From: Clostridiales bacterium
Lineage (GTDB): Bacteria > Bacillota > Clostridia > Lachnospirales > Lachnospiraceae
DNA: 64,000 nucleotides
Assembly: GCA_023663185.1 (NCBI GenBank)
Contig: JAMPHY010000006.1
Coordinates: forward strand, 112,403 to 176,402
Direction of reading: 5' to 3'
Position numbers and translations under genes: made by a program. Shown piece by piece: positions 4,692 through 57,210 of this stretch. How positions within the stretch are numbered: the stretch's first letter is position 1; the number at the start of each line of letters is the position of its first letter. The notes under the pieces were generated by a model. The model ran no database searches, was not told the DNA's origin, and saw only the letters and a program-made list of their open reading frames with translations.

Positions 4692-5114
4692 TTATAAGCT
4701 TGCTCGTGCCGCATCATATCCTGACTGTATATATACTTTCAAAAATTTTTCGGCGCACTGTGAAGGACCAATCCATAGTACCGCTTCATAGGAATTTCTA
4801 GCATATAATACTACTTTATAAGGAATCCATAGTGAAAGTTCATTTGTCAATTCATCCGCTATATCCTGAAAAATCTTATTGACTGCAATAAACACATCTT
4901 CTCTATATGACTTCACTTTACATTCGTTTTCCAGAATTAGATCTAACTCACCAGCATAATCATTTTCTATCCGTCGTGAGCCATAGTATGATCCGTTACA
5001 GCGCGGCACTTCATCTTTCAAACAAATTTTTGCTTGCCATTTTATATATGCAATCCACTTCTTCGTATGAAGGTTCTTTTTACAATACTGATATAATTCT
5101 TCTGCATTTTTCAT
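4692..5114 (-). CDS. Unknown 140-residue protein, first gene of the Gly/Asn-motif module
   Basis: A soluble mixed alpha/beta protein without a recognised domain. I chose the ATG at 5114 because AGGAG lies immediately upstream (spacing about 7); the frame stays open to 5138 but without a good site there. It lacks the GKN motif of its two downstream neighbours and has a hydrophobic beta stretch near residues 100-115 (SLWIPYKVVLYARNS). It lies 36 bases upstream of the 108-residue gene and is likely co-transcribed. Its promoter region has been replaced by, or lies within, the neighbouring Rpn-tail scar. Confidence 0.6.
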   Translation of the reverse strand: MKNAEELYQYCKKNLHTKKWIAYIKWQAKICLKDEVPRCNGSYYGSRRIENDYAGELDLILENECKVKSYREDVFIAVNKIFQDIADELTNELSLWIPYKVVLYARNSYEAVLWIGPSQCAEKFLKVYIQSGYDAARASL

Positions 5115-34249: not shown

Positions 34250-34290
34250 GTAACAGTTCAGTCCATGTTTTCTAAAGACTGAACTGTTAC
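34250..34290. repeat. 14-bp perfect inverted repeat after the BlaR1-like gene
   Basis: GTAACAGTTCAGTC and GACTGAACTGTTAC with a 13-base loop, 14 bases downstream of the BlaR1-like stop. There is no T run. It probably acts as an mRNA 3-prime end hairpin. No gene is seen in 34044-34249. Confidence 0.6.
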
Positions 34291-47826: not shown

Positions 47827-47911
47827 GAGTTTAACCAACATGAATAAAATAAGGAGCGACTTACCGCTTTTCAGGCATGGAGCTCCGTTTTTATTCATGT
47901 TGGCTAAACTC
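47827..47911. repeat. Long inverted repeat between the adaptor and permease genes
   Basis: The arms 47827-47849 and 47889-47911 pair over 23 bases with one mismatch (GAGTTTAACCAACATG against CATGTTGGCTAAACTC). The enclosed 39 bases contain GGAGC and GAGCTCC, which can extend the stem. No transposase-related sequence is visible. It lies 21 bases past the stop of the permease gene on the minus strand, so it may also end transcription. Confidence 0.75.
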
Positions 47912-48807: not shown

Positions 48808-48972
48808 ACTTTTCCTTTCTCGCTATTCTTAGACATTTGCAAAATAACATTCTTTAATAGACTACGTTGTACAATTACTTATTCTGCACACATCTATTTA
48901 TAAAATCTATTCTCCTAATGCCCCAACAAGCACAATCCTAAGGCTTGCTAACTTATATCGTTGATATGTTGG

Positions 48973-49111
48973 GCGACATGGACTCATATGCTTCCTCTTG
49001 AGGTCCTTGGAAAACGCCGGTACTTAGCGAGGTTTTTTCGAGCTTAGTACCGCTGCGATTTTCCACGGAGTGAGAACGTGCCTCAAGTGGAAGCATATGA
49101 GTTCATGTCGC
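48973..49111. ncRNA. Conserved-core long hairpin element, copy A
   Basis: 139 bases. The outer arms pair over about 30 bp (GCGACATG, ACTCATATGCTTCC, CTTGAGG against their complements at 49081-49111). The inner core 49019-49051 is GGTACT, T, AGC, a loop GAGGTTTTTTCGA, GCT, T, AGTACC. Copy B at 57073-57210 has the same core at the same offset (46 bases) but different arms. It lies between two permease genes of the sugar operon. It is classed as ncRNA because pairing is kept while sequence changes; a DNA element is also possible. The rest of 48808-49130 holds no gene. Confidence 0.6.
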
Positions 49112-49130
49112 ACTCCACCAGATACCCCTG

Positions 49131-57072: not shown

Positions 57073-57210
57073 GTTGTACAATATATACAAAACATAAGTA
57101 GGGTACTCTGCCGCCGTCGGTACTTGGCGAGGTATTTTCGAGCCTAGTACCGTTACTGGCGGCAACGTAGCGGAAGCGTGCCCTACGTTGTTTTGTATAT
57201 ATTGTACAAC
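57073..57210. ncRNA. Conserved-core long hairpin element, copy B
   Basis: 138 bases. The outer arms GTTGTACAATATATACAAAAC and its complement, plus GTAGGG/CCCTAC, enclose GCCGCC/GGCGGC and the core at 57119-57151 (GGTACT, T, GGC, loop GAGGTATTTTCGA, GCC, T, AGTACC). Compared with copy A, AGC/GCT has become GGC/GCC, a paired change. The T-T mismatch and loop are kept. A 3-prime part ACGTAGCGGAAGCGTGCC resembles ACGGAGTGAGAACGTGCC of copy A. It fills the gap between the kinase gene and the next gene. Confidence 0.6.

Follow-up and report, generated by a model that had tools for sequence, protein, structure and literature searches.

On balance, the hairpin at positions 48973..49111 of the window, which is the whole 64,000-nucleotide stretch of DNA analyzed here, is best explained as a member of an interspersed, non-autonomous family of foldback repeats found in the Lachnospiraceae, with a separable cis-RNA core unit. 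The core probably serves in cis as an RNA module, which nested mobile hairpins carry. The sequence-only reading had taken this hairpin, designated as copy A, for a structured RNA. That reading was well supported for the core unit in the genus g26, and it was not supported for copy A as a stand-alone RNA gene, copy A being instead one copy of a mobile palindromic repeat lying in either orientation to genes.

Copy A is a class-A mobile hairpin whose core strand is the plus strand, on which all of the following parts are given. The outer arms GCGACATGGACTCATATGCTTCC (48973..48995) and GGAAGCATATGAGTTCATGTCGC (49089..49111) enclose the left inner arm on the junction side (48998..49018), the 33-nt core GGTACTTAGCGAGGTTTTTTCGAGCTTAGTACC (49019..49051), and the right inner arm (49052..49087), which contains a GT-GAGA-AC mini-hairpin of the GNRA type at 49070-49077. 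The core consists of an ACTT-AGC-GA-loop-GA-GCT-TAGT unit within a GGT/ACC stem. Copy B, a class-B mobile hairpin at 57073..57210 on the plus strand, has the unit ACTT-GGC-GA-loop-GA-GCC-TAGT in its core (57119..57151, plus strand) and the GNRA mini-hairpin GC-GGAA-GC at 57170..57177 (plus strand). When folded as RNA, positions 48960-49125 formed one long hairpin with −87.2 kcal/mol, and positions 48973-49111 folded as DNA with −49.6 kcal/mol, with none of 200 shuffles being as good in either case. Compared with dinucleotide shuffles, the fold z values were −11.0 for copy A and −10.2 for copy B (0/200 as good).

The core had been reported at a common offset in both copies, and the positions 49019-49051 and 57119-57151, with 33 nt and an offset of 46 bases in each copy, bear this out, as they do the AGC/GCT versus GGC/GCC change with the kept T-T mismatch. 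The loop was likewise present in both, with that of copy B one base off that of copy A. Since the loop alone matched the window four times at up to two mismatches, against 2.3 matches expected, it is weak proof by itself. The core pattern produced 37 matches in the host genome and none with the reversed control, and therefore the shared core is real; in the window, copies A and B were the only matches of the unit pattern with free triplets. The 30-bp arms differ between the two copies and pair with themselves as described, but they are not unique to each copy and fall into two classes with several members each.

The sugar-transporter operon had been correctly recognized, as it comprises two BPD_transp_1 permeases and a solute-binding protein. 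The element lies between the two permease genes, with its core strand antisense to the operon. A strong separate hairpin, CCAACATGAATAAAA..TTTTATTCATGTTGG, was found in the same transporter region at 47835-47903, between two minus-strand ORFs. Elsewhere in the window, at 34250-34290, a perfect 14-bp inverted repeat, GTAACAGTTCAGTC..GACTGAACTGTTAC, resembles the outer ends of class-A variants and is perhaps a solo remnant.

Two copies alone are unable to tell selection on RNA from a DNA palindrome. A covariance model, a search that the sequence-only reading had itself proposed, was built from 32 copies and run at E values up to 10 on the host assembly of 3.83 Mb, where it found 88 matches, the weakest with an E value of 0.056. 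At E 0.01 or better, 35 of the 37 same-genus genomes, including the host's own, contained matches, and none of the 24 genomes from other families of the order did. Across the 61 genomes searched, the counts per genome ranged from 0 to at least 71. In the contig collection, exact cores were present in at least 107 stretches. The titles among the 80 matches listed included Lachnospiraceae, Butyrivibrio, Clostridium, Clostridiaceae, Clostridiales, Hungatella, Enterocloster, and a few unplaced bacteria, together with two stretches from one MAG titled Bacteroides. The nested element is near certain to be a repeat family. Adjoining copies in the host and its relatives, for example at L130, L112, L305, and L328, often face each other head to head, a minus copy followed by a plus copy, with a spacing that is mostly 150-350 bases. 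No published description of the repeat or the unit was recognized in the literature searched, which left most subscription journals outside; by their titles, the papers containing the string ACTTAGCGAGG concern unrelated subjects only, and the matching passage of PMC8040213 concerns another subject.

The nested element is built in layers. Among the host copies listed, the folds have outer arms of class A (CATGGACTCATATGCTTCC), class B (TTGTACAATATATACAAAACA), or variants of these, and inside them lie the inner arms and a three-way junction that bears a mini-hairpin of two pairs. In all 32 rows of alignment A1 the mini-hairpin loop is GNRA (GAGA 17, GAAA 8, GGAA 4, GGGA 2, GCAA 1), and its stem is GC/GC in 27 rows, AC/GT in 3, GT/AC in 1, and GC/GT in 1. 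Three loop modules occur among the copies listed, I (GCGAGG-loop-CGAGC), II (a longer hairpin between two GA steps), and III, and plug-in hairpins are added at fixed places: the 5′ side takes GACCAC..GTGGTC, the 3′ side AACAATAAGAATG..CATTCGTTTGTT, and the left arm GCGCCACTGGCGC. At three loci (L277, L279, L280) the outer arms occurred with no interior, and a class-B copy of 234 bp in genome G007 (L321) pairs out to its ends. In the same genome, at L303:12636-12829, class-A-like ends enclose a wholly different structured interior, and such ends may thus be able to serve several cargoes.

In alignment A1, 15 of the 31 inner pairs were changed on both sides, a number reached by none of 500 shuffles. 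Pairing was kept in 99.1% of cells, and the covariation score was again reached by 0/500 shuffles; the number of pair types, a weak measure, was not above the shuffles, 382 of 500 of which reached it. The outer arms, inner arms, GNRA side-hairpin, loop module, and optional plug-ins thus vary while their pairing is kept. The claim of a conserved core with covarying stems therefore extends beyond the two original copies. The two outcomes that the sequence-only reading had named against itself were not what was found, the 88 host matches with further covariation contrasting with an isolated pair of copies, and the variable arms with a known MITE of fixed arms.

The wobble pairs were counted in 105 nested copies, which are related, so that p-values are not meaningful for these numbers. 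The inner pairs contained 96 GT and 49 AC, whereas the outer arms contained 168 GT and 321 AC, which counts against selection on the core strand only in the arms. The gene context was read from a sample of 90 nested copies, comprising 30 of the 88 host copies (loop-I loci) and 60 of the 61 matches in the G007 blocks. Between crude ORFs, 82 could be placed (−− 37, ++ 26, +− 10, −+ 9), while five lay inside an ORF call and three had no ORF on one side. Of the 63 tandem cases, 53 had the nearer gene's stop codon 75-130 bases off the element center. Nested copies in the contig-collection loci were distributed as ++ 27, −− 24, +− 15, and −+ 4; the tally of these loci, nested copies and other units alike, left out 13 inside ORFs and 12 at edges. 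Since there was no clear orientation bias, a role in mRNA is unsupported for the nested elements.

Comparison of orthologous sites, including the search for empty sites that had been suggested, revealed relatives in which the element is absent. At the copy-A site, the gap as displayed was free of such a hairpin in 12 further congeners, whereas G035 had a class-B element and G007 had the same class-A element with loop module II instead of the host's module I. Twenty host intervals anchored in 1.19 Mb of G007, together with the two window sites, gave 22 sites for comparison, of which 13 were occupied in both genomes and nine were empty or held a residue in G007. Among the 13 doubly occupied sites, six had the same arms with another loop or plug-in (site A, L025, L206, L226, the second site of L236, and L245), and one had an inverted interior (L208). 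The module class was kept at three (site B, L215, and L216, where the G007 loop lies outside the search expression and was read directly from the sequence comparison), the arms differed at two (L028, L234), and an outer hairpin faced a full copy at one (L277).

The nested element is therefore likely to be mobile, and transposition was inferred from presence and absence because the ends fade and a single imperfect direct repeat of ~24 bp flanks one empty site (L001). No consistent target duplication and no TA duplication were seen at the sites compared, and the conservation of the flanks fades without a sharp end. Terminal inverted repeats are present, although imperfect (GTTACTATTCACAG in class A, TTAGRTAATTGCGAAAC in class B) and degenerate in most copies. 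No transposase with matching ends was found as an IS-sized pair among the 13 host sites with class-B ends (up to one mismatch), the class-A ends being searched in 1.26 Mb, and Y1_Tnp was absent from the host genome.

Several other origins were rejected. An autonomous element with class-B ends was not found. An origin of the arms by inverted target duplication, prompted by L028 and L244, was dropped, since the arms look like diverged class-B arms when compared with G035 and L106, and one arm seems to persist in G007 as a remnant. A phage origin was rejected on zero matches of two patterns to viral contigs, with phage matches only at E values of about 0.1, and a plasmid origin on zero plasmid matches of the g26 double unit, copy A having two at E 0.1. 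One of these two, L427:1401-1620 on the Lachnospira eligens ATCC 27750 megaplasmid NC_012780.1, folds as a nested relative with a GNRA side-hairpin and adjoins an FtsX-like permease gene.

The core also occurs as a separable hairpin unit of the form ACUU-NNN-GA-loop-GA-N′N′N′-UAGU, with a U-U mismatch, three variable base pairs, tandem G-A, and a short loop. At some loci this hairpin is found without arms, singly or in tandem, and at others several are combined in a branched structure. The unit pattern matched 66 of 392 genomes of the order with a completeness of 80 or more, all of them in the host's family (66/169) and none among the 223 genomes outside it. Since the reversed control pattern matched 10 of the 392 genomes, a few genomes with a single match may be due to chance. 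When triplet pairing was not demanded, ACTTnnnGA-n9-GAnnnTAGT occurred 221 times in 177 loci, and all three triplet pairs were formed in 217 of the 221. Among 92 distinct units, 24 had triplets beyond the reach of the retrieval patterns, and 20 of these 24 paired fully. G-U wobble was present in 12 fully paired distinct units, and A-C occurred once among the rest. In the alignment of these 92 rows, 97.7% of cells paired and six of nine pairs were changed on both sides; the covariation score was reached by 0/500 shuffles, the doubly changed pairs by 8/500, and the pair types, a weak measure, by 11/500. The constancy of ACTT/TAGT and GA/GA proves nothing, because the search pattern demanded these letters.

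Units in the genus g26 had a sense orientation. Of 58 unit clusters found, 45 were placed between genes (++ 35, +− 6, −− 3, −+ 1), and the others were inside an ORF call (seven), at an edge (two), or duplicates (four). A nested copy (L367) is part of this cluster set, as are three loci of G448 (L395-L397) with near-identical copies of a larger repeat that contains one unit and represents another element class in g26. Among the 52 distinct clusters, 24 followed a long same-strand ORF, starting 2-12 bases 3′ of its stop codon, and 13 were directly 3′ of a T-tract preceded by a stretch with a folding energy of −12.5 kcal/mol or less, with one more showing both and 14 neither. At 5,000 random points on both strands, the corresponding numbers were 211, 170, 4, and 4,615, a control to which random intergenic points would be a stricter alternative. 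The letters preceding the unit resembled GAGTAGAGC in part of the g26 units, with AAGTAATC before others. Directly upstream of units, Rfam leaders were present at 4 of the 13 loci given, namely FMN (L425), T-box (L361, L412), and ZTP (L413). At these loci the units share the leader, following its aptamer or terminator, but they lie outside the Rfam matches and are not part of those families. Beyond g26, 21 units of the contig-collection loci were ruled outside the nested class (−− 11, ++ 7, −+ 2, +− 1), seven of the 11 −− units being in branched multi-unit elements (L106, L118, L155), and a sense bias outside g26 is unsupported by −− 11 versus ++ 7.

Orthologous g26 units were compared in 16 locus pairs with flanks 78-97% identical, covering 22 units, with some loci in several pairs that are not independent. 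After the exclusion of 13 units whose aligned partner was absent or outside the pattern, 46 of 66 base pairs were the same, 17 were doubly changed with pairing kept, two were changed on one side, and one was broken. Paired changes were already seen at a flank divergence of 3-6% (L358/L418, L390/L411, L369/L401). Changes this fast suggest that copies exchange sequence, as the nested elements do, and gene conversion may account for them better than selection acting point by point. The structured-RNA reading of the g26 core unit is well supported by its sense orientation, its tolerance of G-U and hardly of A-C, and the compensated orthologous pairs.

The sequence-only reading had recognized no known class, and comparison with Rfam 15 agreed. 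At the gathering score, no family matched anywhere in the window, and there was no match at the element in the window, at eight unit loci, or at 13 leader loci. At E 1, no match at five unit loci fell on the unit by position. A sub-threshold score on copy A, 29.7 bits for MIR5284 against a cut-off of 93, was read as a long-hairpin artefact.

Among the alternatives, purely selfish DNA palindromes of the ERIC or foldback MITE kind would have no RNA function, and their structure would be kept by an enzyme recognizing a folded single strand or by template switching between the arms. Such palindromes fit the copies in both orientations to genes, the variable copy number with no match in 2 of 37 congeners, the presence and absence between relatives, the solo arm hairpins, the outer-arm wobble against the core strand, and a fold that is good in DNA too. 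However, the asymmetric GNRA side-hairpin, one-sided bulges, U-U, and tandem G-A persist despite the arm-to-arm correction expected of them, and the g26 units are strand- and position-specific, so that we regard this explanation as unlikely. Group IIC introns insert behind terminators, and an RNA-mediated (retro)element doing the same would account for the 13 of 52 g26 clusters directly 3′ of terminator-like T-tracts in fixed orientation; it is nevertheless very improbable, as stop-codon sites are commoner (24 of 52) and no Rfam intron matched in the window or at the 13 leader loci. A REP/REPIN system with a Y1 tyrosine transposase (RAYT) as its mover is disfavored and has scarcely any probability left. 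In its favor are the short hairpin units, the tandem and head-to-head pairs, the sites 3′ of stop codons, a 5′ flank resembling GTAGAG in some g26 units, and one of ten examined Y1 loci with a unit within 3.4 kb (L386, genome G189). These are outweighed by the absence of Y1_Tnp from the three high-copy genomes (host, G007, G017), the presence of Y1 in 15/22 unit-positive versus 14/22 unit-negative genomes (n = 44), and nine of the ten Y1 loci without a unit, Y1 presence thus not tracking the units. IS200/IS605-type Y1 mobilization was rejected on the same grounds, with Y1 missing in the host and not tracking the units.

To return to the mobile repeat with its RNA core, the sequence features would class the nested element as a mobile foldback (MITE/ERIC-like) repeat with ERIC/NEMIS as the nearest kind. 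As an ERIC/NEMIS-type MITE should be, it is a small, non-coding, palindromic intergenic repeat. According to passages of PMC2229807, ERIC and NEMIS-Correia MITEs are mobile, non-coding, and mostly intergenic long stem-loops of about 100-200 bp, with size variants carrying an internal insert and with suggested effects on mRNA. The size, the intergenic long stem-loop, the non-coding mobility, and the insert variants are shared with the present element. As far as those passages describe them, they differ from it in its covarying layers, its loop modules that differ at the same site between relatives, its core that also occurs armless as a sense-strand unit, the lack of a visible TA target duplication, and its occurrence in one family only among the genomes sampled. 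With REP/REPIN elements it shares hairpin units, doublets, many copies, and compensatory changes, which passages of PMC3116915 report for REPIN spacers. A GTAG or CGTC tag at one end characterizes REP elements by the title of PMC3733652, the text of which names no Firmicutes or Clostridia. The present element differs in its motif, in the absence of a Y1 transposase from the host, G007, and G017, and in arms that are nested rather than forming a simple doublet.

In the mechanism that we propose, the unit would be a cis-acting RNA module located where segments of an mRNA meet, and its most likely role would be to protect or process a cistron or leader on its 3′ side via a candidate bound protein or RNase. 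In the genus of the window, the unit would have become the heart of selfish hairpins, which would move as DNA or ssDNA through a putative enzyme acting in trans, and recombination between copies would renew their loops. In its full form, which we put forward tentatively and with some doubt, the Lachnospiraceae would have their own cis-acting RNA boundary mark, the ACUU-NNN-GA-loop-GA-N′N′N′-UAGU hairpin behind stop codons and leader terminators, which would be read by a putative factor, renewed by cassette exchange, and captured by layered mobile hairpins with about ninety copies per genome. If true, a single family of bacteria from gut and rumen would harbor a structured RNA and a mobile repeat that have both gone undescribed. 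They would make it possible to test how RNA elements mark the ends of cistrons and leaders, how hairpin cassettes are exchanged in place, and how palindromic repeats diverge while their arms stay complementary.
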